Below, piece after piece: positions 1,549-17,990 of a stretch of DNA of 64,000 bases. The position numbers were made by a program, and so were the translations under genes. Below the pieces are notes generated by a model. It made no database searches. It was not told the origin of the DNA and saw only the letters and a program-made list of their open reading frames with translations. The DNA comes from Bradyrhizobium arachidis (GTDB taxonomy: Bacteria > Pseudomonadota > Alphaproteobacteria > Rhizobiales > Xanthobacteraceae). The stretch spans positions 6,324,001 through 6,388,000 of the forward strand of contig NZ_CP077970.1 in assembly GCF_024758505.1 (NCBI RefSeq), in the 5' to 3' direction. Positions within the stretch are counted from its first letter, which is position 1. Every line of letters begins with the position of its first letter.

Positions 1549-3705
1549 ATGAGCCGCATTCCTGATTTCGCCAACGTCGCTTTCGAGAGAGTAGCCTCGA
1601 CTGCACCTGCAGGCAGTGCCGAGCCGTGGCTGACGCCCGAGGGCATTCCGGTCAAATCCGCCTACGGTGAAGCCGATCTCGCCGGCCTCGATTTCCTCGA
1701 GACATATCCGGGCATCGCGCCCTATCTGCGCGGGCCCTACCCGACCATGTATGTCAACCAGCCCTGGACGGTGCGGCAATATGCCGGCTTCTCCACGGCG
1801 GAGGATTCCAACGCGTTCTACCGCCGCAACCTCGCGGCGGGCCAGAAGGGTCTCTCGGTCGCCTTCGATCTCGCCACCCATCGCGGCTACGATTCCGATC
1901 ATCCGCGCGTCGCCGGCGACGTCGGCATGGCCGGTGTTGCCATCGATTCCATCTACGACATGCGCACGCTGTTTGCGGGCATTCCGCTCGACCAGATGAG
2001 CGTGTCCATGACCATGAACGGCGCGGTGCTGCCGATCCTCGCGCTGTATGTCGCGGCCGCCGGCGAACAGGGCGTGCCGCCGGAAAAGCTCTCGGGCACC
2101 ATTCAGAACGACATTCTGAAAGAGTTCATGGTGCGCAACACCTATATCTATCCGCCTGCGCCCTCGATGCGGATCATCTCCGACATCTTCGCCTACACCT
2201 CGCAGAAGATGCCAAAGTACAACTCGATCTCGATCTCCGGCTATCACATGCAGGAGGCCGGCGCGACGCAGGATCTCGAACTCGCCTACACGCTCGCCGA
2301 CGGCGTCGAATATCTGCGCGCCGGTCTTGCGGCCGGCCTCGACGTCGACCGCTTTGCGCCGCGGCTGTCGTTCTTCTGGGCGATCGGCATGAATTTTTTC
2401 ATGGAAGTCGCCAAGATGCGCGCCGCGCGGCTGCTCTGGGCGAAGCTGCTAAAGCCGTTCAACCCCAGGGACCCGCGCTCGCTGTCGCTGCGCACGCATT
2501 GCCAGACCTCCGGCTGGTCGCTGACCGCGCAGGACGTGTTCAACAACGTCATGCGCACGACCGTGGAAGCGATGGCCGCGACGCAAGGACATACCCAATC
2601 GCTGCACACGAACGCGCTCGACGAGGCGCTGGCGCTGCCGACCGACTTCTCCGCGCGCATCGCCCGCAACACCCAGCTCTTCCTGCAGCAGGAAAGCGGC
2701 ACCACGCGGATCATCGATCCCTGGGGCGGCTCCTACTATGTCGAGCGCCTGACGCGCGACCTCGCGGCAAAAGCCTGGGGCCACATCCAGGAGGTCGAGG
2801 AACTCGGCGGCATGGCAAAAGCCATCGAGGCCGGCGTGCCAAAACTGCGGATCGAAGAAGCCTCCGCCAAGACGCAGGCCCGCATCGATGCCGGTCGGCA
2901 GGCCGTCATTGGCGTCAACAAATACAAGCCGTCAGATGAAGTGCCGATCGAGATTTTGAAGGTCGACAACACCAATGTGCGGCGGCTCCAGATCGACAAG
3001 CTGACCCGGCTGAAGAGCGAGCGCAACCAGGCGGACGTCGATGCAGCGCTCGCCGCGCTGACGCGCTCGGCCGGCGAAGGCAACGGCAATCTCTTGGCGC
3101 TCGCGATTGACGCGGCGCGAGCCAAGGCCACCGTCGGCGAAATTTCGGACGCAATGGAAAAGGTGTTCGGCCGCCACCGCGCCGAGATCAAGTCCATCAC
3201 CGGCGTCTACAAGCGGGAGGCTTCCAGCATGGGCAGCCAGGTGGAAAAGGTTCAGGCGCTGATCGACGCGTTCGAGGAGGCCGAGGGCCGCCGGCCCCGC
3301 ATCCTGGTCGCCAAGATCGGCCAGGACGGCCATGATCGCGGCCAGAAGGTGATCGCATCGGCCTTTGCCGACATAGGCTTCGACGTCGACATCGGGCCGC
3401 TGTTCGCCACCGCCGACGAAGCGGCGCGGCAAGCGGTCGAGAACGACGTCCACATCCTCGGCGTCTCCTCGCTCGCGGCCGCCCACCTCACCGCCGTGCC
3501 CGAACTGAAGGCCGCGCTGAAGAAGCAGGGCCGCGACGACATCATGATCATCGTCGGCGGCGTGGTGCCGCCGCAGGACTATGACGCGCTCTACAAATCC
3601 GGTGCGGAGGCGATCTTCCCGCCCGGCACGGTGATCGCGGAAGCCGCCGAGGAGCTGATCCACAAGCTCAACGTTCGCCTCGGGCACAGCGAGGCGGCGG
3701 AGTAA
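1549..3705 (+). CDS. mutB: methylmalonyl-CoA mutase large (alpha) subunit
   Basis: The catalytic subunit, about 718 residues, which is normal for the family. The N-terminal two thirds is the substrate-binding TIM barrel, with [13 protein letters not shown] and Phe-Asp-Leu-Ala-Thr-His-Arg-Gly-Tyr. The C-terminal domain is the B12 Rossmann domain, with the base-off cobalamin motif Asp-Gly-His-Asp-Arg-Gly in the context Lys-Ile-Gly-Gln-Asp-Gly-His. It converts methylmalonyl-CoA to succinyl-CoA with adenosylcobalamin in the cytoplasm. An in-frame ATG at 1537 would add four residues. I prefer 1549 because the protein then begins Met-Ser-Arg-Ile-Pro, a common start in relatives, and a weak TTGGAA precedes it. 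The chaperone gene meaB lies 4.8 kb downstream. Confidence 0.95.
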
Positions 3706-3910
3706 TCCTGCAAAAGCCGCGCTCTCCGGCATGAACCCGGAGGGCCCGATGCCGCGACCAACGGCGATGAGACCGTTGGCCGGCATTTCCATTGCACCAG
3801 AGCGTTTTGCACCCGTTCATCTTCTGGTGTTTATCCCTTGGCAGACCTTTGGCCACTGTCGCCGCACGGCCGCGCGATCTTTGGCGGTGCATGGAAAGAG
3901 CGTGAGATTC

Positions 3911-4729
3911 ATGAGCATTGAATTGATGGACCATCAAGCAAAGCGTGCCGGATCGGCCCTGCGCGCGCTCGCCGTTCTCGCGGCCATGATGGCGCTCGCC
4001 TCGCCCCTGCGCGCCGCCGAGCCAAAACCCGACGCCATCATCAAGACCCAATCGGTCAGAGCCACCGTCCTGCTGGATGACAAGATCAAGGCCGATCCCG
4101 TGCTGTCAGCCGATTGCCTCGCCGAGGGTAAGAAGTGGATCGAGAAGAACGCGGCTGAAGCCGCCGCCTCCCGCAAGAGCGATCCGCAGTTCTTCAAGGA
4201 TGGCGGCTGGGAGTTCGAACGCAAATATTCGGTCCGCTCGGTCGTCGGCGATCGCTATGTCAGCGTGCTCCGCGACGACTACATGGACACCCATGCCGCG
4301 CATCCCAATTCCGGCGTCAACACGATCCTGTGGGACAAGACGGCCGCCAAGCGCATCTCGATCCGCCCGTTCTTCACCGAAACCGCCGACAACGGCGCGA
4401 CTATGAAGGCGATGCAGAAGGCGATCATCGCTTCGCTCAGAAGCGAAAAGAAGAAGCGCGACGCCGGCGATACCGCGACCAACGAATGGTTCAAGGACGT
4501 CCAGCCCACCCTTCTCAAGATCGGCGCGGTGACGCTCGCGCCCTCGACGGAGGCGGGCAAGAGTTCCGGCCTCACCTTCCACTATCCGCCCTATGCGGTC
4601 GGTCCCTATGCCGAAGGCCAATACGTCGCCTTCGTGCCGTGGGAGGCGCTGAAGCCGTACCTCACGCCCGAAGGCGCACGCATTTTTGGCGGTGCACGGC
4701 CGAAGGGCGACGAAGATAGCGAGCAGTGA
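3911..4729 (+). CDS. exported DUF3298/RsiV-like protein
   Basis: A 272-residue protein with an N-terminal hydrophobic segment (about residues 15-36, ending Leu-Arg-Ala-Ala) that looks like a signal peptide. The mature part resembles the PdaC/SigV-RsiV-like DUF3298 fold: a Tyr-Val-Ser-Val-Leu strand, then Ala-His-Pro-Asn-Ser-Gly with the conserved Ala-His-Pro turn, and a late Tyr-Pro-Pro-Tyr-Ala-Val-Gly-Pro-Tyr-Ala-Glu-Gly segment. The frame is open upstream to 3731, but the ATG at 3911 places the signal peptide properly. The family domain occurs in lysozyme-binding anti-sigma RsiV and in exported proteins of unknown role. No catalytic role can be assigned here. Confidence 0.75.
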   Translation: MSIELMDHQAKRAGSALRALAVLAAMMALASPLRAAEPKPDAIIKTQSVRATVLLDDKIKADPVLSADCLAEGKKWIEKNAAEAAASRKSDPQFFKDGGWEFERKYSVRSVVGDRYVSVLRDDYMDTHAAHPNSGVNTILWDKTAAKRISIRPFFTETADNGATMKAMQKAIIASLRSEKKKRDAGDTATNEWFKDVQPTLLKIGAVTLAPSTEAGKSSGLTFHYPPYAVGPYAEGQYVAFVPWEALKPYLTPEGARIFGGARPKGDEDSEQ

Positions 4730-4736
4730 GCCGTCG

Positions 4737-5204
4737 CTAGCTGGAGCGTGCCAGCGTCCGCGCGAGTGAATCCGTCCAGGCGGGAATCCACGAACCAAAC
4801 AAGGCTTGCCAGCGATCGGCATCCGCTGGCTCGGTATCGAGTGCGACCGACCATTCGATCAGGGTGCGGTCACCCTCGACGATCGGACGCAGATGCATGG
4901 TGCCTTGGTAGCGCGTCGGCGACGGTACCTGGCTCGAGCCGTCCTGCGGATACGGCAGCGCTTCGAGACCGGCATAGGTCAGGGTGTGCTGCCGGTCCGA
5001 ATGATCGACCAGGCGCTGACGGATCCAGTTGCCGAGATAACAGAAGCGCCTGATGGCGCCGACTTCGTCGCCGCGCTTGTCGTCCTCGATCACGCTCTCG
5101 CTGACACCGTCGATATAAGCGGGGTAGTTATTGAAGTCGCGGATCAGCGACCAGACGGTGTCCACCGGATGGTCCAGCACGGCACTGTAATAGGCTTGGG
5201 TCAT
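4737..5204 (-). CDS. SRPBCC-family (START/Bet v1-like) protein
   Basis: A 155-residue single-domain protein of the SRPBCC superfamily. Visible features are the opening Ala-Val-Leu-Asp-His-Pro-Val-Asp-x-Val-Trp-x-Leu-Ile-Arg-Asp-Phe-Asn-Asn-Tyr-Pro, a central Arg-Arg-Phe-Cys-Tyr-Leu-Gly, and a C-terminal helix. The hydrophobic cavity of this fold binds lipids or aromatic ligands; the ligand here is unknown. I used the ATG at 5204. A GTG at 5231 preceded by GGAGG would add nine residues and is a real alternative. It is transcribed away from the tct operon, so the two share the region that holds the GGTAGCGCTACC palindrome. Confidence 0.75.
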   Translation of the reverse strand: MTQAYYSAVLDHPVDTVWSLIRDFNNYPAYIDGVSESVIEDDKRGDEVGAIRRFCYLGNWIRQRLVDHSDRQHTLTYAGLEALPYPQDGSSQVPSPTRYQGTMHLRPIVEGDRTLIEWSVALDTEPADADRWQALFGSWIPAWTDSLARTLARSS

Positions 5205-5328
5205 TGGAGGTTTACCCTTGGCTTTGGTCACATGCCCTCCATTGATCGTGATCCGCGCGGGCAAAACCCACCCGATTTCCGACTGCTCATTGGGCCATCC
5301 GGGTTTCGCATAGCGCGTCGATCACTTT

Positions 5329-5340
5329 GGTAGCGCTACC
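5329..5340. promoter_or_regulatory. LacI/GalR-type operator candidate
   Basis: GGTAGCGCTACC is a perfect 12-bp palindrome with a central CG, the form typical of LacI/GalR-family operators. It lies 81 bp upstream of tctC and 125 bp upstream of the divergent SRPBCC gene. No LacI-family gene is in the window, so the cognate regulator would be elsewhere. Confidence 0.4.
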
Positions 5341-5420
5341 TTGCAGCCGCGCTGCAAAGCTGCCTAAAATGCCACATCGACAAGAGCGCCCGGCGTCACG
5401 GGCGCCGCTGGGAGGCATTC

Positions 5421-6413
5421 ATGTCCAAGCTCACGCGCCGCACCTTTGCGGCCTCGTCCGTTGCAGCTGCGGCCTCTGCCGCCTTTGGTTTCACACCGGC
5501 GCTTGCGCAGGCCTATCCGGCACGTCCCGTCACCGTGATCGTGCCGTGGGGTGCGGGCGGCGGCACGGACGCGACCGCACGCATCGTGGCGGCGCTGCTG
5601 GAAAAGGACCTCGGCCAGCCCTTCAACGTCGTGAACCGCACCGGCGGCTCCGGCGTCGTCGGCCACTCCGCGATCGCGACCGCCGCGCCCGATGGCTACA
5701 CGATCGGCATGCTCACGGTCGAGATCTCGATGATGCACTGGCAGGGCCTCACCGAGCTGACGCCGAAGAGCTACACGCCGCTCGCGCTGATGAACGAGGA
5801 CCCGCCGGGCATCCAGGTCTCGTCCACCTCGCCCTACAAGACGGTCAAGGAATTGGCCGAGGCGATCAAGGCGGCACCTCCCGGCAAGTTCAAGGCGTCG
5901 GGCACCGGCCAGGGCGGCATCTGGCATCTCGCGCTGGTCGGCTGGATGCAGGCAATGGGACTGCCGGCCAACCAGGTCGCCTGGGTGCCGTCGAACGGTG
6001 CGGCGCCTGCGATGCAGGATCTCGCCGCAGGCGGGCTTGACCTGACGACGTGCTCGGTGCCGGAAGCCCGCGCCATCATCGAGGCCGGCAAGGCCAGGAG
6101 CCTCGCCATCATGGCGCCTGCCCGCAACAAGGTCTTCCCTGATGTCCCGACGCTGAAGGAGGCGATGGGGATCAACTATTCGACCGGCGCCTGGCGCGGC
6201 ATCGGCGCGCCAAAGGGCCTGCCGCCGGAGATCGCCACAAAACTCACCGCGGCGCTGAAGAAGGTCTACGACTCCACCGAGTTCAAGGAGTTCATGAGCA
6301 ACCGCGGCTTCGGCACCGTGTGGGGCGATGCCGGCGAGTTCACCTCCTTCATGGACAAGGGCGACGCGCAGATGGGCGAAGCGATGAAGGCGGCTGGTCT
6401 CGCGAAGGCCTGA
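5421..6413 (+). CDS. tctC: tripartite tricarboxylate transporter substrate-binding protein (Bug/TctC family)
   Basis: A 330-residue periplasmic binding protein. It opens with a Tat-like signal (Arg-Arg-Thr-Phe-Ala, then an Ala-rich hydrophobic stretch ending Ala-Leu-Ala-Gln near residue 30). The Bug signature follows at once: Tyr-Pro-x-Arg-Pro-Val-Thr-Val-Ile-Val-Pro-Trp-Gly-Ala-Gly-Gly-Gly-Thr-Asp. A second family mark is Gly-x-Trp-Arg-Gly-Ile-Gly-Ala-Pro-Lys-Gly-Leu-Pro near residue 257. These proteins deliver carboxylates to TctA/TctB, which follow here. The start is preceded by GGGAGGC. Proximity to the methylmalonyl-CoA genes suggests, but does not prove, a small dicarboxylate or propionate-related substrate. 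Confidence 0.9.
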   Translation: MSKLTRRTFAASSVAAAASAAFGFTPALAQAYPARPVTVIVPWGAGGGTDATARIVAALLEKDLGQPFNVVNRTGGSGVVGHSAIATAAPDGYTIGMLTVEISMMHWQGLTELTPKSYTPLALMNEDPPGIQVSSTSPYKTVKELAEAIKAAPPGKFKASGTGQGGIWHLALVGWMQAMGLPANQVAWVPSNGAAPAMQDLAAGGLDLTTCSVPEARAIIEAGKARSLAIMAPARNKVFPDVPTLKEAMGINYSTGAWRGIGAPKGLPPEIATKLTAALKKVYDSTEFKEFMSNRGFGTVWGDAGEFTSFMDKGDAQMGEAMKAAGLAKA

Positions 6414-6448
6414 TCTTTGGGTCAGTTGGCCAAGGGCACTCAGATCAC

Positions 6449-6470
6449 CTCGCCCCGCTTGCGGGGAGAG
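6449..6470. repeat. intercistronic hairpin between tctC and tctB
   Basis: CTCGCCCCGC, a TT loop and GCGGGGAGAG form a near-perfect stem in the 84-bp gap between tctC and tctB. The same CCTCGCCCCGC-type hairpin is common between genes in Rhizobiales. Such stems often protect the upstream transcript from decay, which would fit the need for more binding protein than permease. There is no U-tract, so it is not a simple terminator. Confidence 0.5.
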
Positions 6471-6497
6471 GGAGCGCACCGTTCATAGGACTCGTCC

Positions 6498-6986
6498 ATG
6501 CGTCTTCCCGACTCCGTTACGGGATCGTTTCTCGTCGTGCTCGGTGCCGCCGCGGCCTATGGCGGCTGGCGGCTGCCGCCGGTGCCGGGCCAGCCGGTCG
6601 GCCCCAACGTCTTTCCGCTTGTGATCGGCACGGGGCTCGCGCTCTGCGGCCTCGCGATCGTGTTCGGCATCGGCCATTCGTTCGAGGAAGAAGAGGAACT
6701 CATCCCGGTCGAGGAAGGCCAGGCCAGGGCCGCGCCGACCGGCCGGTTCTACGGCCTGCGCGCGCTGCTGCCGCCGGCACTGCTCTTGTTCTACGTGGTC
6801 GCCGCCGACCGGCTCGGCTTCATCATCACGGCCGCGCTGATCGTGCTGGCGACCTCGACCGCGCTCGGCGCGAAATGGAAGCTCGCGCTGCCGCTCGCGG
6901 CCCTGGCGCCGATCGGCATCCACCTGATCTTCGCAAAACTGCTGCGCGTGCCGCTTCCTGCCGGCCTGTTGCCGATGCCCTGGTGA
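6498..6986 (+). CDS. tctB: tripartite tricarboxylate transporter small membrane subunit (TctB family)
   Basis: A 162-residue integral membrane protein with four predicted hydrophobic segments (roughly residues 10-25, 35-57, 88-105 and 112-150) and an acidic cytoplasmic loop (Glu-Glu-Glu-Glu-Glu around residue 62). Its opening Arg-Leu-Pro-Asp-Ser-Val-Thr-Gly and Gly-Pro-x-Val-Phe-Pro-x-Val-Ile-Gly are typical of TctB. It forms the permease with TctA, whose gene starts four bases after this stop. Confidence 0.9.
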   Translation: MRLPDSVTGSFLVVLGAAAAYGGWRLPPVPGQPVGPNVFPLVIGTGLALCGLAIVFGIGHSFEEEEELIPVEEGQARAAPTGRFYGLRALLPPALLLFYVVAADRLGFIITAALIVLATSTALGAKWKLALPLAALAPIGIHLIFAKLLRVPLPAGLLPMPW

Positions 6987-6989
6987 TCC

Positions 6990-8504
6990 ATGCTCAATAC
7001 CCTGATCGAGGCGTTCCGGCTCATCTCCACGTGGGAGGTCATCGTCGCGATGTTCGCGGCCTCCGTCTACGGCCTCGTTATCGGCTCGTTGCCCGGCCTC
7101 TCCGCGACCATGGCAACCGCCCTGCTCGTCCCTGTCACATTCTATCTCTCGCCGATCGCAGCCATCGCGACCATCGTGGCGGCATCCTCGATGGCGATTT
7201 TTTCCGGCGACATCCCCGGCGCGCTCTTGCGCATTCCCGGCACGCCGGCCTCCGCGGCTTACGCGGACGAGGCCTATGCCATGACGATGAAAGGCGAGGC
7301 TGAACTCGCGCTCGGCGCCGGCGTCTGGTTCTCCGCGGTCGGCGGCATCGCCGGTGTCGTCTCGCTGATGGCGCTGGCGCCGCCGCTCGCCGAGATCGCG
7401 CTGTCGTTCTCGACCTTCGAATATTTCTGGCTCGCGTTGCTCGGCCTGATGTGTGCAACGCTGGTGGCGCGTTCCTCGCCGGTGAAGGCGATTGCCGGCA
7501 TGTTCATTGGCCTGCTCGTCTCCTGCATCGGCATCGAAAACCCCGGCGGCGTGCCGCGCTTCACCTTTGGCCTCACCGATCTGCTCGGCGGCATCGAGCC
7601 GATCCCGGCGCTGGTCGGCGTCTTCGCGGTCGCGCAGGTCATGCGCGCGATGCTGACGCCCGAACCGCCACCGATCCCGCGGCGCAAGTTCGGGAGCATC
7701 ATGGCGGGCCAGTGGACGCTGACGAAGAAATACCATTGGCAGATGACGCGCGGGAACATCATCGGCATCATCATCGGCGTGCTGCCGGGCGCCGGCGCCG
7801 ATATGGCAGCCTGGGTGAGCTACGCGATGTCGAAGCGCTTCTCCAAGGAGCCGGAAAAGTTCGGCACCGGTCATGTCGAGGGCCTGGTCGAGGCCGGCGC
7901 CAGCAACAATGCCAGCATCGCGTCCGGCTGGGTGCCTTCGCTGCTGTTCGGCATACCCGGCGACACCATCGCGGCGATCGCGATCGGCGTGCTCTACATG
8001 AAGGGCCTCAATCCCGGGCCGACGCTGTTCACCGAAAAAGCCTCGAGCATGTACGCCATCTACCTGATGTTCATCATCGCGAACATTTTGATGATCCCGC
8101 TCGGCATCGCCATGATCCGGATCGCGGCCTATGTGCTGCGCGCGCCGCGCTCCACCGTGATGCCCGTCATCATGCTATGCTGCGCGGTCGGTTCGTTCGC
8201 CATCGGCAACAACATGTTCGGCGTCGTCACCGTCGCAGCCTTCGGCGTGATCGGCTATGTGATGGAGGCCAACGGCTATCCCGTCGCCGCCATGGTGCTC
8301 GGCATCGTGATGGGCACGATGGTGGAGCAGGCCTTCGTCACCTCGCTGATCAAGTCCGACGGCAGCATCCTGCCGTTCTTCGAGCGGCCCGTCGCCGCGA
8401 TCCTCGCCGCCATGGCGATCGGCGCGCTGCTCTGGCCGGTGATGCTGTGGATCTGGCGCAAGGTGAAGCCGGCGCAGACGACCTCTGCGGCGGCAGCCCG
8501 CTGA
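6990..8504 (+). CDS. tctA: tripartite tricarboxylate transporter large permease (TctA family)
   Basis: A 504-residue polytopic membrane protein of normal length for TctA, with about 12 hydrophobic segments. The two duplicated family signatures are present: Gly-Ser-Leu-Pro-Gly-Leu-Ser-Ala-Thr-Met-Ala near residue 32 and Gly-Val-Leu-Pro-Gly-Ala-Gly-Ala-Asp-Met-Ala-Ala-Trp near 260. The Gly-x-Pro-Gly-Asp motif (Phe-Gly-Ile-Pro-Gly-Asp-Thr) follows. It imports carboxylates captured by TctC, driven by an ion gradient. It is four bases from tctB and 49 bases upstream of meaB. Confidence 0.93.
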   Translation: MLNTLIEAFRLISTWEVIVAMFAASVYGLVIGSLPGLSATMATALLVPVTFYLSPIAAIATIVAASSMAIFSGDIPGALLRIPGTPASAAYADEAYAMTMKGEAELALGAGVWFSAVGGIAGVVSLMALAPPLAEIALSFSTFEYFWLALLGLMCATLVARSSPVKAIAGMFIGLLVSCIGIENPGGVPRFTFGLTDLLGGIEPIPALVGVFAVAQVMRAMLTPEPPPIPRRKFGSIMAGQWTLTKKYHWQMTRGNIIGIIIGVLPGAGADMAAWVSYAMSKRFSKEPEKFGTGHVEGLVEAGASNNASIASGWVPSLLFGIPGDTIAAIAIGVLYMKGLNPGPTLFTEKASSMYAIYLMFIIANILMIPLGIAMIRIAAYVLRAPRSTVMPVIMLCCAVGSFAIGNNMFGVVTVAAFGVIGYVMEANGYPVAAMVLGIVMGTMVEQAFVTSLIKSDGSILPFFERPVAAILAAMAIGALLWPVMLWIWRKVKPAQTTSAAAAR

Positions 8505-8553
8505 AGCCGGCCCGGCCCCTCGCCTGCGTCATCAGGCCGTTGTAAAGCAGGGT

Positions 8554-9543
8554 ATGATTCAGAAGAAGGCATCCCTCGACATCAAGGTCCTCGCCAAGGA
8601 CCTGCGTGCCGGCAGCCGGGCCGCGCTGGCGCGGGCGATCACACTGGTCGAGAGCCGTCGCGGCGACCATCAGGCCCACGCGCGCGATCTCGTGCAGATG
8701 CTGCTGCCCGACACCGGCAAGGCCGTGCGCGTCGGCATCACCGGCTCACCCGGCGTCGGCAAGTCCACCACCATCGACGCGCTTGGCAGCTATCTCATCG
8801 AGCAGGGCCACAAGGTCGCGGTGCTCGCGGTCGACCCCTCCTCGGCGCGCAGCGGCGGCTCGATCCTCGGCGACAAGACGCGGATGGCGCGCCTCGCGGC
8901 TTCCGACCACGCCTATATTCGCCCCTCGCCGTCGTCGGGCACGCTCGGCGGGGTCGCAGCCAAGACGCGCGAGGCGATGCTGCTCTGCGAGGCGGCGGGG
9001 TTCGACGTCGTGCTGGTGGAGACCGTCGGCATCGGCCAGTCGGAGACGGCGGTCTGCGACATGACCGACTTCTTCCTCGCCTTGATGCTGCCGGGCGGCG
9101 GCGACGAGCTGCAGGGCATCAAGAAGGGCCTGGTCGAGCTCGCCGACATGATCGCGATCAACAAGGCTGATGGCGACAATCTCAAGCGCGCCAACATTAC
9201 CGCGGCCGACTATCGCGGCGCGCTGCATATTCTTAGCCCCCGCTCGGAGCACTGGCATCCGCCCGTCGTCACCTACTCGGCACTGACCGGCAAGGGCATC
9301 GCAGAGCTCTGGCAAAAGATCCTCGATCACCGCAAGGCGATGAACGCATCAGGCGATTTCGCCGCGCGGCGGCGCGAGCAGCAGGTGAAATGGATGTGGT
9401 CGATGCTGGAGCAACGCATGCTGGCAAGGCTGCGCACCGAAGCTGCCGTCCGCGCCAAGGTGAAGAAGATCGAAGCCGAGGTCGCCGACGGTCGGGTCAC
9501 GCCGGCGCTCGCCGCCGAACACATCATGGAGCTGCTGCAATGA
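8554..9543 (+). CDS. meaB: methylmalonyl-CoA mutase-associated GTPase MeaB
   Basis: A 329-residue G3E-family P-loop GTPase. The Walker A motif Gly-Ser-Pro-Gly-Val-Gly-Lys-Ser is at residues 64-71, the G4 motif Asn-Lys-Ala-Asp occurs near residue 203, and Val-Glu-Thr-Val-Gly-Ile-Gly-Gln-Ser-Glu is the conserved switch region. MeaB gates cobalamin loading and protects the mutase from inactivation, so its presence near the mutase genes is functionally coherent. It follows tctA by 49 bases and overlaps pcp by four bases (ATGA), which suggests one transcript for tctCBA-meaB-pcp. Older annotations call this family ArgK. Confidence 0.95.
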   Translation: MIQKKASLDIKVLAKDLRAGSRAALARAITLVESRRGDHQAHARDLVQMLLPDTGKAVRVGITGSPGVGKSTTIDALGSYLIEQGHKVAVLAVDPSSARSGGSILGDKTRMARLAASDHAYIRPSPSSGTLGGVAAKTREAMLLCEAAGFDVVLVETVGIGQSETAVCDMTDFFLALMLPGGGDELQGIKKGLVELADMIAINKADGDNLKRANITAADYRGALHILSPRSEHWHPPVVTYSALTGKGIAELWQKILDHRKAMNASGDFAARRREQQVKWMWSMLEQRMLARLRTEAAVRAKVKKIEAEVADGRVTPALAAEHIMELLQ

Positions 9544-10196
9544 GCGACAAGCTCCGCATCCTCCTCACCGGTTTCGGTCCGTTTCCCGGCGCACCCTATA
9601 ATCCGACCCAGCCGCTGGTCGCGCGGCTGTTGCGGCTGCGCCGTCCCGCTTTCGACGACGTCGAGCTTGCGAGCCACATCTTTCCGGTGACCTACGCCGC
9701 CGTCGACCGGCAACTGCCCGAGGTGCTGGCGAAGGTGAAGCCAGATGCATTGCTGATGTTCGGCCTCGCCGCGCGGACGCCTTACCTGCGCGTCGAGACC
9801 CGCGCGCGCAACGCCGTCACCATGCTCTGGCCCGACGCCGCCAACACCCGCTCAAGCAAGCGCGGCATCGCAGCCAATGCGGACGCGATGTTGTTCGGCC
9901 CGCATACCGCACGGCTGTTGCGCGCTGCGCGCCTCACCGGCATCGACGCGCGAGCTTCGCGCGATGCCGGCGCCTATCTCTGCAACTATCTGAGCTGGCG
10001 CGCGATCGAGAAGGTCAAGGCCGACGGCGGGCCATCGCTTGCGGCGTTCATTCACATTCCGCTGCTGGCGCGCGGCGGTGCGTCGCGGCACAGAGGAACG
10101 GCGCCGCGCATCACGCTGGAAGAGCTGGTCGACGCGGGCGAAGCGATGCTGATGGAGATGGTGCAACTGGCACGGAAGGCGCGCCGCACAGCGTGA
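9540..10196 (+). CDS. pcp: pyroglutamyl-peptidase I (C15)
   Basis: A 218-residue cysteine peptidase that removes N-terminal pyroglutamate. The opening Leu-Leu-Thr-Gly-Phe-Gly-Pro-Phe-Pro-Gly is the C15 family signature. The triad is visible as Glu86 (Arg-Val-Glu-Thr), Cys148 (Tyr-Leu-Cys-Asn-Tyr) and His172 (Phe-Ile-His-Ile-Pro). The ATG at 9540 overlaps the meaB stop; the longer open frame to the left runs inside meaB and is not used. The C-terminal half is a little divergent from enterobacterial Pcp but keeps all catalytic residues. Confidence 0.88.
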   Translation: MSDKLRILLTGFGPFPGAPYNPTQPLVARLLRLRRPAFDDVELASHIFPVTYAAVDRQLPEVLAKVKPDALLMFGLAARTPYLRVETRARNAVTMLWPDAANTRSSKRGIAANADAMLFGPHTARLLRAARLTGIDARASRDAGAYLCNYLSWRAIEKVKADGGPSLAAFIHIPLLARGGASRHRGTAPRITLEELVDAGEAMLMEMVQLARKARRTA

Positions 10197-13398: not shown

Positions 13399-15111
13399 CT
13401 ATCGCGTCGCAGGCCTATCCGCCTGAGAAATCGTGGATTTATCGGCGGCCATGGTCGGCGACGGTTGTTCCAGCGCGCGTGTTCCCGGCTCTTCGCGACG
13501 TTCCGACGCATCTTCACGTTTAGTTGTACCGGGTGCTGCCGCCATCGGCGTTGCACCGTCGACCGGAACGGCCATCACGGCGGCGTAAGCATCGGCCTGG
13601 CCGTCGCCAAACAGATCATCGCGGCCCGGCGTTCCCAAATCGCGCGCGGTCTTGGCAAGCGTCATGCGCAGCGCTTCCGGCTTCAGCGCGAAGTTGCGCT
13701 CGAGGAGAAGCGCCGCGACGCCGCTGACATAGGCCGCCGAGAACGAGGTGCCCGAGGTCATCTGGTATTTGCCATCCGGCGCCGGCAGGAAGATATCGAC
13801 GCCGGGCGCCGCCAGCGCGATGTAATTGCCGCGGTTCGAGGCGGTAAACAGCTTGTCCTGCGCGTCGGTCGCGCTCACTGCGATCACGTTCGGGTTGGCG
13901 GCCGGATAGAGCGGCGGCGATTTTGCGCCGGCGTTGCCGGCGGCTGCAATCAGCACCAGACCGCGTGCGGCAGTCGCGGCGATCGCGCGCTCGATCACCG
14001 CATCCTTCGGCCCGGCAAAGCTCATATTGACGATCTGCGCGCCGTGCTCGGCGGCGTAGTTCAGCGATTTCAGGATCACGTAGGAGCTGCTCTCCGCGCC
14101 TCCCGTGGTGCCGCCGAAGGCGCGGATCGCGATGATGCGCGCCTCGGGCGCACTGCCCATCAACCGCGCATGCGCAACGATCGCCCCGGCGATGCCGGTG
14201 CCATGGATATGCGGGCCTTCCTGGCTTCCCAGCGCGTCGAAATTGTCGGAAATCGAATTGGCGAGTTCGGGATGTCTAGCGTCGATGCCGGAATCGATCA
14301 CCGCGACCGTCACATTGGCGCCATGCACCAGTGTGTGCGCCTGCGGCAGGCGGAGTTTTGCCAGCGCATATTGCGCCGGATCGCCCTCGGTCGGGACGCC
14401 CGCCTTCTGGTCCTGCAGCACGTAGCGGAAATTGTCCTGCAGCGATCGCACGCTGCTGTCGGCCACGAGTTCGCGGCGCACGGTGTCGTAAGTGCGGCCG
14501 TCGGCGATGCGGAACAGACCGATGGTCGCGCCGATCAGCGGAAAGTTTTCCAGCGCGAGCCGCGTCAAACCGTGGCGGCGCGCAAACTCGTCGGCGTCGG
14601 TCGGCGACGTCCGCACATCCATCTCGGCGACGAATTCGTTGGCAAAGGTCCTCAGATTGACGACGGCCGGCGTCGAGTTATTGCGGCGCCCGTTGCCCGT
14701 ACTCTTCTTGACGGATTTGCCGGACCCGCCGTCGCCGCTGGCGTTCGGCTTGTCGACGCATTCGCCGTTGGCGTCCCGGTAAGGCGCGGTGCAGGACGGA
14801 TAGAGGTTCGGCGAATAGCGCGCATAGGGCATTGTGGGCCGCGCGGCATTGATCGCGGTGAGCCCGCCCGGTCGCAGCGCAATGCCGGGACCACGGTCAA
14901 CGCTCACCCTCCCCGCAATGTTCGGCGGAACGCGCGGGGCAACGATGGTGTTGACGGTCGGCGTACGGGACGGAACGCTGATCGTGGGTGTGCGCATGAT
15001 CGCCTGCGCATGCGCCACCTCGACACCGAGGCAGGCGCCGAGCAGAAGCGCCGCGCTCACCGACGAAGCGCAGACCCCCGCTCTCAAGCCTCTCTCGGAC
15101 TTCTGCGTCAT
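13399..15111 (-). CDS. secreted subtilisin-like serine peptidase (S8)
   Basis: A 570-residue exported protease. A signal peptide spans about residues 1-36 (ending Ala-His-Ala-Gln). A Pro/Arg-rich linker with a Ser-Gly-rich stretch follows to about 150, then a propeptide-like domain at about 156-232. The catalytic domain has Asp273 (Val-Ile-Asp-Ser-Gly-Ile-Asp), His303 (His-Gly-Thr-Gly-Ile-Ala-Gly), oxyanion Asn393 (Ala-Gly-Asn-Ala-Gly) and Ser456 (Gly-Thr-Ser-Phe-Ser-Ala-Ala). The triad is complete, so it should be active in the periplasm or outside. It starts 14 bases after the anti-sigma gene and is followed by a terminator, so it is the last gene of a three-gene operon. It may process the neighbouring anti-sigma. 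Confidence 0.93.
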   Translation of the reverse strand: MTQKSERGLRAGVCASSVSAALLLGACLGVEVAHAQAIMRTPTISVPSRTPTVNTIVAPRVPPNIAGRVSVDRGPGIALRPGGLTAINAARPTMPYARYSPNLYPSCTAPYRDANGECVDKPNASGDGGSGKSVKKSTGNGRRNNSTPAVVNLRTFANEFVAEMDVRTSPTDADEFARRHGLTRLALENFPLIGATIGLFRIADGRTYDTVRRELVADSSVRSLQDNFRYVLQDQKAGVPTEGDPAQYALAKLRLPQAHTLVHGANVTVAVIDSGIDARHPELANSISDNFDALGSQEGPHIHGTGIAGAIVAHARLMGSAPEARIIAIRAFGGTTGGAESSSYVILKSLNYAAEHGAQIVNMSFAGPKDAVIERAIAATAARGLVLIAAAGNAGAKSPPLYPAANPNVIAVSATDAQDKLFTASNRGNYIALAAPGVDIFLPAPDGKYQMTSGTSFSAAYVSGVAALLLERNFALKPEALRMTLAKTARDLGTPGRDDLFGDGQADAYAAVMAVPVDGATPMAAAPGTTKREDASERREEPGTRALEQPSPTMAADKSTISQADRPATR

Positions 15112-15125
15112 GAGCTCAGGGCGCC

Positions 15126-15833
15126 TCAGGGCGCCGGCACGGCAAGGTCGACGATCTTCTCGCGCTGCATCTTGCCAAGAAGGCCATTCAGTTCGTCCCG
15201 GCTCATCGCCTGGGCGAATTGCAGGCTAAACATACCGCCTTTCATCCCGCCGACGATCGAGGCCTGATAGCCGTCGAGCAACGCGGTGATGTCGGCGACG
15301 CGGGCGTCCGGCGTGAAGCGCACCAGAGCGTGGGCGGCAGCCGGCGCGGCCGCCTGCGGCCCAAGCGCGCGTGTGACGGAGTCGCTCTTGCTCAGCGACG
15401 CGGTCTGGAACGTGGACGACTGGTTCTTCACCAGCACGGCACCGATGATGCCGGCCTGCAACACCAGCGCAAACGCGCCGAGGCTTGCCGACCAGGCGAG
15501 CGTGCGCGGCGACAGGCTGGAGAAGAAGGCCGCGATCCGCTGCGACAGGCCGATGGTGGCGCTTCCCGCGCGGGCCGGCTCGGCGTCGATTGCCGCAAAC
15601 AGCTTCTGCATGGCGCGCCCCGATGGCGCTCCCAGGCTTTCGTTCAAATGGATGGTCTCAGCGAGTTCCTCGCGGATCGCTGCATATTGCTTCGCAAGCC
15701 CCGGATCCCGGGCGAGCGCTTCCTCGACGCGGCGAGCGTCGCGGGCGTTCAGCGTGCCGGCAGCATGCCAAGGCAGCAGAACCTCAATCTCACTGGGCTC
15801 TTGGTCCAGCATTTTCTTGCTCAAAGCCATCAT
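15126..15833 (-). CDS. transmembrane anti-sigma factor with subtilisin-propeptide-like periplasmic tail
   Basis: A 235-residue protein. Residues 15-80 look like the sigma-binding anti-sigma domain (Leu-Leu-Pro-Trp-His-Ala-Ala-Gly-Thr-Leu, then Arg-Arg-Val-Glu-Glu-Ala-Leu) without the zinc His-x3-Cys-x2-Cys motif. A transmembrane helix spans about 111-135. The periplasmic tail at 168-232 reads Leu-Val-Arg-Phe-Thr-Pro-Asp-Ala, Ile-Thr-Ala-Leu-Leu-Asp-Gly-Tyr, Met-Phe-Ser-Leu-Gln-Phe and ends Ile-Val-Asp-Leu-Ala-Val-Pro. That order of strands and helices is the layout of an S8 propeptide (I9/fervidolysin type). It overlaps the sigma gene by ATGA and precedes the subtilase gene by 14 bases. Assignment as anti-sigma rests on domain layout and neighbours. 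Confidence 0.8.
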   Translation of the reverse strand: MMALSKKMLDQEPSEIEVLLPWHAAGTLNARDARRVEEALARDPGLAKQYAAIREELAETIHLNESLGAPSGRAMQKLFAAIDAEPARAGSATIGLSQRIAAFFSSLSPRTLAWSASLGAFALVLQAGIIGAVLVKNQSSTFQTASLSKSDSVTRALGPQAAAPAAAHALVRFTPDARVADITALLDGYQASIVGGMKGGMFSLQFAQAMSRDELNGLLGKMQREKIVDLAVPAP

Positions 15834-16399
15834 GGCCAGCCTCGCTCAACGCCGGCTGCCTTCAGCAGCTCGGCCAGTTTCTTGCGCGCATAGAACAAGC
15901 GCGTCTTCACAGTGTTCTCCGGTATCCCGACGATTTCGGCCACCTCCTCCACGGACTTCTCGTGGTAGTAGACGAGATCGACGATTTCCCTATGTTCCGG
16001 CGAAAGTCCCGTGAGGCACTCCCGCAACGCTTCACTGGTATCCTTCTTCTGAACCGCCGTTTCCGGATTGTCGGACGAATCCTCGATCGCGTTGGCGGCC
16101 TCGTCGTCCAATTCGAGATCCTTCCTGCGCCGGAGCGCAGAGAGGGCCTTGAATCGGGTAATTGCCAGCAGCCAGGTGGAAACCGCGGATCGGCCTTCGA
16201 ACTTGCCGGCCTGACGCCAAACGTCGAGAAACACCTCACTGATGAGGTCTTCCGCCGTCTGCTCGTCCCGCACGAGCCTCAGCCCGAAGCGATACACCCT
16301 GACATGATGCCGCCCGTACAGCACCTGCATAGCGAGCCGGTCGCCTTGGGCGATCCGGGCGATCAGGACCTCGTCCGTAGCCGCCTGTGTCACGCTCAA
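15830..16399 (-). CDS. ECF RNA polymerase sigma factor
   Basis: About 189 residues, the size of a group 4 sigma factor. Region 2 is visible as Ala-Glu-Asp-Leu-Ile-Ser-Glu-Val-Phe-Leu-Asp-Val-Trp with Phe-Lys-Ala-Leu-Ser-Ala-Leu-Arg-Arg-Arg. Region 4 is visible as Leu-Ser-Pro-Glu-His-Arg-Glu-Ile-Val-Asp-Leu-Val-Tyr-Tyr-His-Glu and Ile-Pro-Glu-Asn-Thr-Val-Lys-Thr-Arg-Leu-Phe-Tyr-Ala-Arg-Lys-Lys-Leu. The start is a TTG at 16399 or a GTG at 16393; neither has a strong ribosome-binding site. It is coupled to the anti-sigma by an ATGA overlap, and the pair leads the subtilase gene. Confidence 0.9.
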   Translation of the reverse strand: MSVTQAATDEVLIARIAQGDRLAMQVLYGRHHVRVYRFGLRLVRDEQTAEDLISEVFLDVWRQAGKFEGRSAVSTWLLAITRFKALSALRRRKDLELDDEAANAIEDSSDNPETAVQKKDTSEALRECLTGLSPEHREIVDLVYYHEKSVEEVAEIVGIPENTVKTRLFYARKKLAELLKAAGVERGWP

Positions 16400-16829
16400 A
16401 GGCCGTCTCGCAAAGTTGGTCGGGAGGAAACCGCGGACGGTTCGACGGGTGCCGCAAGATTCTTCAACTTACCGCAAACGTACGGCCGCCTGTGTGACCT
16501 ACCCCACATACGTCCATTTTCTTGCGGTCGTGAAAGGCGCCGGCCGGCGCCCACCCCAAAAATAGGTAACATGATACTGAAACATTTCCCTGCGGCGCGC
16601 CCGGCAAGCGCAGGCGACCTTACCAAGCCTCGATCCATAGCACAGCCTTGTGCAGCGCCTCTGGCAGTGAGGTGCGGCCGGATTGCCGGCCGATGCCTAA
16701 CCGCTCGCTAATTCCCGTTGCCGATCAAGGCCATTGCCGGTGCGGCAGGGCCGGATTCGGCGCCCAAGGATACCAAACCTAAAGGCTTCCCACGTAGATT
16801 TTTGATCTCCGTTCATCAGTAGCGAGACC
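16400..16829. other. divergent promoter region without a supported gene
   Basis: A 430-bp gap between the divergent ECF sigma gene and the diguanylate cyclase gene. It contains the 16-bp perfect palindrome GGCGCCGGCCGGCGCC at 16536-16551 and an AT-richer stretch around 16552-16590. I could not recognise a convincing ECF -35/-10 pair. Short frames here look like noise. Confidence 0.5.
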
Positions 16830-17990
16830 ATGGGCAGCACTCCCGCGTCGTTCTCCCCGGACCGTACGGCCTCCGAGGTCGCCGAGATCGCGCTCGCCGC
16901 GAGCGCTGTGACACCCGAGGTGAGTGCGCGCCGCGTTCGGCAGCGCCGGCAGATGTATCTCACCCAGGTCGTCAGCTACTCGTTCGGCGCCTCAGTCCTG
17001 CTGCTCTATGCCTATGACGGCGCGGTCGCGATGATCGTGCCCTCCCTGTTCTGGATCGGCGGGCTGACGATCATCGGCGCCTTCACCGTGCTGTCCGAGA
17101 GCGGTTTTGAGGACCGGTTCACCGATCACTATCTCACGGTCTACCAGATCACCGCGCACATGGCGCTGCAGCTCGTATTCCTGCTGGCGGTGCCGACGAT
17201 TGGAATCTGCTTCATCAGCGTCCTGTTCCTGATCTTCGCATTCGGCACGCTGCGCATGACGTCGCGCCAGGCGATGACGACATGGGGGCTTGCCACCGCC
17301 GGCCTCGTAACCGTGTTCATGTTCACCGATCTGCCGATCGGACTGCCGGTCGCAACCCGCCTCGAGCGGTTCGCCTCGATGCTGTGCTTCGTCCTGGTGA
17401 TCGGCCAGTGCTCGTTCCTCGGGCTGTTCGGCAGCACGCTGCGCAAGATCCTCTACACGCGCAGCATCGAGCTCCAGGCCGCCTATCAGCGCATCGAGGA
17501 GCTCGCCGAGCTCGACGAGCTGACCGGCTCCTATAACCGCCGCTGCATCATGCGCCTGCTCGACGAGGAGATCGCGCTGGCCCGCAAGGCGGCAAAGCCC
17601 TGCGCGATCGCGCTGATCGACCTCGACTGGTTCAAGCGCATCAACGACGCCCACGGCCATCCGATCGGCGACGAGGTGTTGCGGACCTTCGCCATCACCG
17701 TCTTCGCCAACATCCGCCCGGTCGACCGCTTCGGCCGCTATGGCGGCGAGGAGTTCTTGCTGCTCCTGCCCGAGACGGAAGGCGACGCCGCCGCGCGCAT
17801 CCTCGACCGGCTCCGCATGATCGTCGCCGATCTCGACTGGGGCGCGTTCTCGCCCAGCATGCGCGTGACGATTTCCGCCGGCGTCGCGGCGCTGCGCGAC
17901 AACGATAATGCCGACACATTTCTCGCGCGCGCCGACAGCGCGCTGTATTCCGCCAAGGCGCGAGGACGCAACCGCATTGCCGCTAGTTAA
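16830..17990 (+). CDS. membrane-bound diguanylate cyclase (GGDEF)
   Basis: A 386-residue protein with about six hydrophobic segments in residues 43-205 and a C-terminal GGDEF domain from about 222. The active-site motif is Gly-Gly-Glu-Glu-Phe at 305-309, and the entry motif Leu-Asp-Glu-Leu-Thr lies at 228-232. The product-inhibition site Arg-Pro-Val-Asp is at 296-299, five residues before the active-site motif, as required for an I-site. It should make cyclic di-GMP from two GTP and be feedback-inhibited. There is no EAL domain. Its sensory input is presumably through the membrane part, whose ligand is unknown. Confidence 0.92.
   Translation: MGSTPASFSPDRTASEVAEIALAASAVTPEVSARRVRQRRQMYLTQVVSYSFGASVLLLYAYDGAVAMIVPSLFWIGGLTIIGAFTVLSESGFEDRFTDHYLTVYQITAHMALQLVFLLAVPTIGICFISVLFLIFAFGTLRMTSRQAMTTWGLATAGLVTVFMFTDLPIGLPVATRLERFASMLCFVLVIGQCSFLGLFGSTLRKILYTRSIELQAAYQRIEELAELDELTGSYNRRCIMRLLDEEIALARKAAKPCAIALIDLDWFKRINDAHGHPIGDEVLRTFAITVFANIRPVDRFGRYGGEEFLLLLPETEGDAAARILDRLRMIVADLDWGAFSPSMRVTISAGVAALRDNDNADTFLARADSALYSAKARGRNRIAAS

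Follow-up and report, generated by a model that had tools for sequence, protein, structure and literature searches.

A subtilase-prodomain-like tail on the anti-sigma factor of an ECF sigma/anti-sigma/subtilase operon in Bradyrhizobium arachidis

The operon and the tail of its anti-sigma factor

The stretch of the Bradyrhizobium arachidis genome analysed here (64,000 nucleotides, contig NZ_CP077970.1, positions 6,324,001 to 6,388,000; hereafter the window) carries an extracytoplasmic function (ECF) sigma factor, a single-pass membrane anti-sigma factor and a subtilase of peptidase family S8, encoded as one operon on the minus strand (Table 1). The present study concerns the C-terminal tail of the anti-sigma factor, whose sequence and modelled fold resemble the prodomains of S8 proteases, and its possible relation to the protease of the same operon. 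The sigma stop and the anti-sigma start share an ATGA overlap, and the S8 gene starts 14 bases past the anti-sigma stop. All three genes had been proposed by a sequence-only reading of the region, and Pfam bears them out, for the anti-sigma factor by sub-threshold matches only (zf-HC2, E 0.017; a cytochrome model, E 0.17). The NCBIfam model NF052375, whose hits we take to be RskA-like, matches the anti-sigma factor at 33.2 bits against a cut-off of 100, and the match stops at residue 162, before the tail. A CPLC pair occurs in a distant member of the family (locus L301). The closest named relatives of the anti-sigma factor come from Bradyrhizobium.

The tail is modelled as a ferredoxin-like domain (residues 166-235, AlphaFold predicted local distance difference test score 85.6) of beta-alpha-beta-beta-alpha-beta order, wherein the strands occupy residues 168-173, 191-197, 201-206 and 228-233 and the helices residues 179-189 and 212-223. 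The segments on which the sequence-only reading had based its likeness to an S8 propeptide, VRFTP, LLDGY and IVDLAVP, are all found in it. Unlike S8 prodomains, which precede the catalytic domain of their own chain, the tail forms the C-terminus of an anti-sigma factor. Among 82 aligned tails (alignment A1, from which those of L136, L186 and L196 were omitted), 31 match PF22148, the fervidolysin N-terminal prodomain family, at E<=1 (best 1.4e-6), and that of L137 passes the family cut-off (22.7 versus 21 bits). The prodomains of the partner S8 proteases match the same family in 32 of 63 cases (best E 1.1e-6). When a profile of the tails was compared with a profile of the S8 prodomains (built without L148, L150, L168, L195, L196 and the loci lacking a usable S8), 63 collinear columns were aligned with a probability of 93.2 and a score of 36.6, as opposed to a maximum of 15.5 in 100 column-shuffled prodomain profiles and 13.1 for the reversed profile. 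Because of this score and of the 31 tails that match PF22148, the resemblance exceeds chance. The profiles support the view that the tail is related by descent to S8 prodomains, as the earlier reading had supposed, and the modelled fold agrees. Among 299 scanned phylum genomes, the tail profile also matched a different S8 protease (L226), within its prodomain (residues 317-375); this is the one S8 prodomain seen matched in the genome scan, and a sub-threshold PF22148 match (E 0.0036, residues 302-381) covers the same segment.

The tail differs from a complete prodomain at its C-terminal end. The window protein stops two residues past the last strand, and its final residue (74 of the model) aligns up to residue 72 of 1spb_P (a 77-residue prosegment), 3cnq_P and 3whi_B and residue 372 of 1scj_B; the tail thus ends about five residues before P1 and is devoid of the C-terminal strand with which a prodomain extends into the active site of the protease. 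In the 82 aligned tails, to which these counts are confined, the median number of residues after the last strand is 2 (51 tails have exactly 2, and 16 have five to eight), and the C-terminus of L186 exceeds all of them in length. The S8 proteases were aligned separately (alignment A2, 63 sequences comprising the window protein and those of 62 of 74 listed S8 stretches). The last prodomain strand spans 11 residues in the model of the S8 protease, versus 6 in that of the tail, and in the 63 aligned proteases this strand is followed by at least 13 residues ahead of the mature-domain QYA. Position +4 after the strand is occupied by Y/F in 62 of the sequences, position +6 by L/P in 44 and position +7 by Q/S in 36; by prosegment numbering, positions +4 to +7 would correspond to P4-P1. 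The aromatic-containing segment that follows the strand in 62 of 63 proteases is missing from most tails. Most aligned tails therefore appear to have retained the prodomain fold and lost the active-site plug. Given the short end and the missing aromatic segment, most aligned members are unlikely to plug the active site in the manner of a cleavage product; such a plug could still form in more distant members, where longer ends occur (L221, L222, L224 with about 17 residues, L225, L227, L230, L234 and L237).

The protease of the window matches Peptidase_S8 at 154.2 bits and is the sole such match in the genome (9.43 Mb, one contig). Its Asp-His-Ser triad and oxyanion Asn are present, in columns that are invariant across the 63 aligned proteases. 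The description of a complete, secreted subtilisin given in the earlier reading accords with these residues and with a segment that looks, by eye, like a signal peptide; the propeptide-like segment that it placed at residues 156-232 coincides with the modelled prodomain (about residues 155-231). Lipoprotein anchoring of the protease was considered, owing to a lipobox-like LLGAC in the window protein, and rejected; the L022 and L048 proteins have no cysteine at that place, and the segment was taken, by eye, for a Sec signal peptide. A lipobox pattern fits 67 of the 80 loci of the first set described below and 12 of 77 diverse S8 proteases, rough counts in that the pattern missed the GAC form. 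The L226 protease (4053-7160) is encoded by a frame of 1036 aa that contains cadherin repeats.

Table 1. Features of the operon and their positions in the window
Feature	Position	Strand	Basis
ECF sigma factor, 189 aa	15830-16399	-	Sigma70_r2 and r4 above Pfam cut-off; NCBIfam PRK12515, 351.7 bits
Single-pass anti-sigma factor, 235 aa	15126-15833	-	Open reading frame, Pfam, NCBIfam
Cytoplasmic anti-sigma domain, about residues 1-109, cysteine-free here	15507-15833	-	Weak zf-HC2 likeness, sub-threshold
Transmembrane helix, about residues 110-135	15429-15506	-	Hydropathy and alignment
Juxtamembrane motif F142-Q-T-A-S146 ([YF]xTA[STG]), proposed site-1 cleavage motif	15396-15410	-	Alignment; cleavage inferred
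S8-prodomain-like tail, residues 166-235	15129-15338	-	Profile homology, model
S8 subtilase, 570 aa, apparently secreted	13399-15111	-	Open reading frame, Pfam; signal peptide judged by eye
Prodomain of the S8 subtilase, about residues 155-233, including Y230-V-L-Q233	14413-14649	-	Alignment, model
S8 catalytic domain, residues 264-504	13600-14322	-	Pfam; Asp273, His303, Asn393, Ser456

Linkage of the tail to the subtilase gene

An S8 gene lies beside the sigma/anti-sigma pair in 173 of 181 loci that encode the tail, and these S8-positive loci span 33 family-level groups (kinship labels, counted by hand). This outcome favours the sequence-only reading, which had proposed such a survey of tail and adjacent S8 gene. 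The remaining eight loci consist of four contig ends and four real exceptions (L223, L225, L229 and L233). The 173 include S8 genes that are partial at a contig edge (L135, L234) or frame-broken (L168); a few pairs of loci among the 181 derive from one genome (L221 and L222, for instance), and some species may be represented in both collections.

The loci were assembled from several searches. A first set contained the best 80 of 199 relatives of the anti-sigma factor, nearly all titled Bradyrhizobium (L029 is titled Bradyrhizobiaceae and L018 Frankia), and shows the sigma, anti-sigma and S8 genes in this order in 80 of 80 cases. A search with the anti-sigma factor gave matches in 87 of the 297 order genomes, Bradyrhizobium included, and in 7 of 289 genomes of the class, including its own; 80 of these places were fetched, the tail is visible in the alignment for all of them, and 77 have an adjoining S8 gene, the misses (L134, L155 and L174) lying at a contig edge. 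The tail profile was matched in 89 of the 297 genomes of the order and in 36 of the 299 genomes of the phylum; ten of these 36, all of them partial and in frames of 429-447 aa that belong to a single family, were taken as chance hits and left out. These scans supplied 20 further places, namely the L226 protease and 19 anti-sigma factors, 15 of the latter with an S8 gene. The total of 181 also includes L281, which a contig break cuts from its operon, and L301. At least three gene orders are represented, as the S8 gene is found 5' of the sigma gene in 5 of the 80 order and class loci (L131, L136, L140, L141 and L146) and is divergent in L230-L232.

In the case of the exceptions, the L223 locus (3390-5210, genome G760) encodes two tail-like proteins on opposite strands, both with cysteines, of which one is clear and the other weak (E 1e-3). 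In L225, the place of the S8 gene directly after the anti-sigma gene is taken by a gene for a caspase-domain protein (Peptidase_C14, E 2.2e-39), apparently with a signal peptide, and a CHAT-domain gene is located 5' of the sigma gene (4159-5013 and 6826-9936, both minus strand); S8 proteases are encoded elsewhere in that genome, and an exchange of the protease partner is possible. Genome G100 likewise has S8 proteases elsewhere, and L233 is a second copy of the tail in genome G262, where two S8 genes occur on other contigs.

The reverse survey, which started from the S8 proteases, showed a looser link. Of 96 places in the 297 genomes of the order that score at least 183 bits, 80 are linked to the system, 79 of them with a tail no more than 2.4 kb away on their contig and one (G014) beside a sigma/anti-sigma pair cut by the contig end. 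The other 16 have no tail nearby; 12 of these were fetched, and no sigma factor, anti-sigma factor or tail was found in the stretches examined, several of which end at contig edges. Paralogous S8 genes of the same family, with no sigma or anti-sigma gene in the stretch examined, were seen at L274, L275, L278, L279 and L282, in genomes of a single genus that also carry the operon copy. At L284 (3156-6050) and L285 (3166-5972), a different and more distant S8 gene adjoins a different ECF/anti-sigma pair, whose anti-sigma factor has no prodomain-like tail.

The surroundings of the operon were also inspected. Alignment of the upstream regions of the 80 loci of the first set revealed conserved blocks, in which no promoter or regulon was identified; a CRP-like palindrome (TGTG...TCACA) 5' of the sigma gene (window 16493-16508, minus strand) is kept across these loci beside other conserved blocks. 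The divergent neighbour (window 16830-17990, plus strand) contains a GGEEF motif and, from the list of open reading frames, is apparently a diguanylate cyclase.

The juxtamembrane motif and the history of the tail

Between the membrane helix and the tail, the anti-sigma factors share a [YF]xTA[STG] motif, found in its strict form in 51 and in a loose form in 69 of 81 sequences. In shuffled linkers the strict motif occurs 0.8 times on average and at most five times. Variants in distant members include YRTLS, YRTLA, FQTLT and YETLT. In a control set of 30 anti-sigma loci found by NF052375 (with matches in 27 of 120 genomes), which are not the closest tail-less relatives of the present family, the strict motif is absent and the loose motif occurs in four; neither tail nor S8 was detected in these controls within flanks of roughly 1.5 kb. 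Since an aromatic residue at P4 is shared with the inferred processing site of the S8 protease itself, the motif is a plausible S8 cut site.

When 81 tails and 72 prodomains were compared, the two kinds of domain formed two groups with no misplacement (support 0.66). The idea that the prodomain was recently duplicated in each operon was considered and rejected, in view of these clean groups and because the prodomain of the same locus is hardly closer to the tail than others (mean rank fraction 0.44); the clean split suggests one old origin rather than repeated duplication. Co-variation was assessed by a mirror-tree analysis of 71 operons (L133 was also left out). Distances among the tails correlate with those among the S8 catalytic domains once the sigma factor and the anti-sigma domain are removed (partial r 0.37), in contrast to a partial r of 0.055 between tail and sigma factor after removal of S8 and anti-sigma domain, and of -0.001 between the tail and the prodomain of the same locus after correction for the sigma factor and anti-sigma domain. 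With the S8 protease, the cytoplasmic anti-sigma domain keeps a stronger correlation (partial r 0.55) than the tail, which is the higher of the two in 0.4% of bootstraps. The analysis was accordingly discarded as proof of contact between tail and protease: it does not discriminate, and supports linkage of the whole operon.

A possible role of the tail and its alternatives

We propose, with a probability that we would put at about 0.48, that the anti-sigma factor serves as a receptor for the protease of its own operon: the S8 protease would dock on the tail and cut the anti-sigma factor, and intramembrane proteolysis would then free the sigma factor. The protease would be exported together with its own prodomain and be inactive until the latter is removed. 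The tail might then act as an exosite for the mature enzyme, which would bind it by the face that its own prodomain otherwise covers. In a ferredoxin-like fold the start of the first strand is near the end of the last one, so the linker would probably leave the docked tail close to the substrate cleft. The docked protease would cleave at the juxtamembrane [YF]xTA|S as site 1, with the aromatic residue in the S4 pocket, and RseP-like intramembrane proteolysis may follow and release the ECF sigma factor. An M50 protease, the candidate site-2 enzyme, is encoded in the same genome (216.9 bits). A more elaborate version of the proposal appears doubtful to us, wherein the operon represents a widespread class of anti-sigma factors whose tail, a zymogen prodomain turned decoy that has mostly lost the inhibitory strand, docks only the mature form of its own subtilase, the latter being a bacterial site-1 protease, and wherein the partner was exchanged in at least one lineage (L225) for a secreted caspase while the tail was kept.

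Several observations weigh against the proposal, beginning with the nature of the tail. The window tail itself matches no Pfam family. SPOR (PF05036) is the next family after PF22148 and matches 14 of the 82 tails at E<=1 (best 9.3e-5), with L162 above the cut-off (23.1 bits); of ten tails taken singly, PF22148 was found in five and SPOR in four at the same threshold, and 30 other families match among the 82, those listed with one member each. The sequence-only reading had asked for a structure prediction and a fold search; the former yielded the ferredoxin-like model, but in the latter, performed with Foldseek, no solved structure had an E value as low as 0.001, and the scores of prodomains are on a par with those of ACT, Lrp and NikR domains, i.e., the fold is a common one. 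Fervidolysin (1r6v) is absent among the Foldseek matches shown, and a search of the tail profile against PDB sequences gave nothing credible (best E 0.45). With regard to cleavage, the loose motif, too, is absent from 12 of the 81 anti-sigma factors, and where it occurs, some of the matches (YTILS, twice, and YRSGA, once) are off its aligned position in the linker. The four tails that have no adjoining S8 gene, the lack of any S8 match at E<=1e-10 throughout genome G760, the stronger co-variation of the cytoplasmic domain and the tails whose ends are long enough for P1 point in the same direction.

The same evidence bears on what the tail might do instead. The sequence-only reading had offered two mechanisms, of which cleavage by the S8 protease is in better accord with the juxtamembrane motif than is inhibition. 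In an alternative that takes up and extends the second, the tail would be an inhibitor or anchor that holds the protease inactive or tethered at the inner membrane, such that the protease is the output of the system and not its trigger. Prodomains are in general tight inhibitors, and the 16 strong S8 places without an anti-sigma factor imply that the enzyme has a life of its own; moreover, seven or more residues past the last strand, enough for P1, are present in 9 of the 82 aligned tails and, by a rough estimate, in eight of the 19 further anti-sigma factors. The aligned proteases already possess a full prodomain, however, and the 51 tails that terminate two residues past the strand fall about five short of P1, which weakens the inhibitor model in most aligned members and makes it unlikely on the whole, though less so where the C-terminal end is long. 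The tail may otherwise be a sensor of another kind, such as a SPOR-like domain that recognises peptidoglycan, with the protease as a merely co-regulated effector. The SPOR matches, together with retention of the tail in G760 and beside the caspase-domain gene of L225, would fit such a sensor, whereas PF22148 matches more tails and does so more strongly, and tails without an adjoining S8 gene are rare (4 of 181 beyond the contig ends), so we regard this as improbable. As prodomains also act as folding chaperones, the protease might cut the anti-sigma factor while the tail mainly folds or stabilises the protease in trans, or binds the released prodomain; the aligned proteases have prodomains of their own (L195 and L196 are too divergent to tell) and the distances of tail and prodomain are uncorrelated, which renders this role very improbable.

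The proposed receptor role can be compared with known systems. RseA-DegS-RseP is the canonical case of an anti-sigma factor activated by regulated intramembrane proteolysis. The general scheme of an ECF sigma factor with a membrane anti-sigma factor subject to such proteolysis is outlined in PMC8999054. Like canonical systems, the present one has a sigma factor with regions 2 and 4 in an operon with a single-pass anti-sigma factor, an M50 protease in the genome and a likely site-1 region just outside the membrane; it differs in that the proposed site-1 protease is the operon-encoded subtilase and the periplasmic domain a prodomain homologue. With fervidolysin and I9-type prodomains (PF22148; 1r6v, 1spb, 3whi) the tail shares detectable sequence homology and the same kind of fold, but it is borne on the C-terminus of a membrane anti-sigma factor, in trans to the protease, and mostly without the active-site strand. 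POIA1 is a soluble, stand-alone inhibitor whose prodomain-like fold acts in trans on subtilisin (complex 1v5i); the tail, in contrast, is membrane-tethered and mostly short at its C-terminus. The eukaryotic site-1 protease is also a subtilase, and its first cut on SREBP triggers intramembrane proteolysis. The subtilase of the present operon would similarly make the first cut on a membrane-held regulator, in different organisms and on a different substrate; we know of no prodomain-like docking domain in SREBP. Subtilase and CHAT genes also occur near the ECF54 sigma factors, which, according to PMC8999054, are said to work without an anti-sigma factor, the proteases being proposed to control the sigma factor itself; here, an anti-sigma factor is present. 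No report of a subtilase prodomain in an anti-sigma factor, or of a subtilase as a bacterial site-1 protease, was found in a literature search covering titles and the beginnings of abstracts, together with portions of PMC8999054 and PMC7406223; their co-occurrence may be tabulated in the main ECF classification paper (NAR 2021).

To our knowledge, the initiating protease and the way in which the anti-sigma factor is recognised are not known for many ECF systems. In this operon both may be encoded together, as a dedicated protease and a matching, prodomain-derived dock. The idea is directly testable, since matches to the anti-sigma factor occur in 87 of the 297 order genomes, Bradyrhizobium among them. 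If it is true, the subtilase would be a bacterial site-1 protease, parallel to that of the eukaryotic SREBP pathway, and the protease's own brake would have been turned into a signalling receptor.

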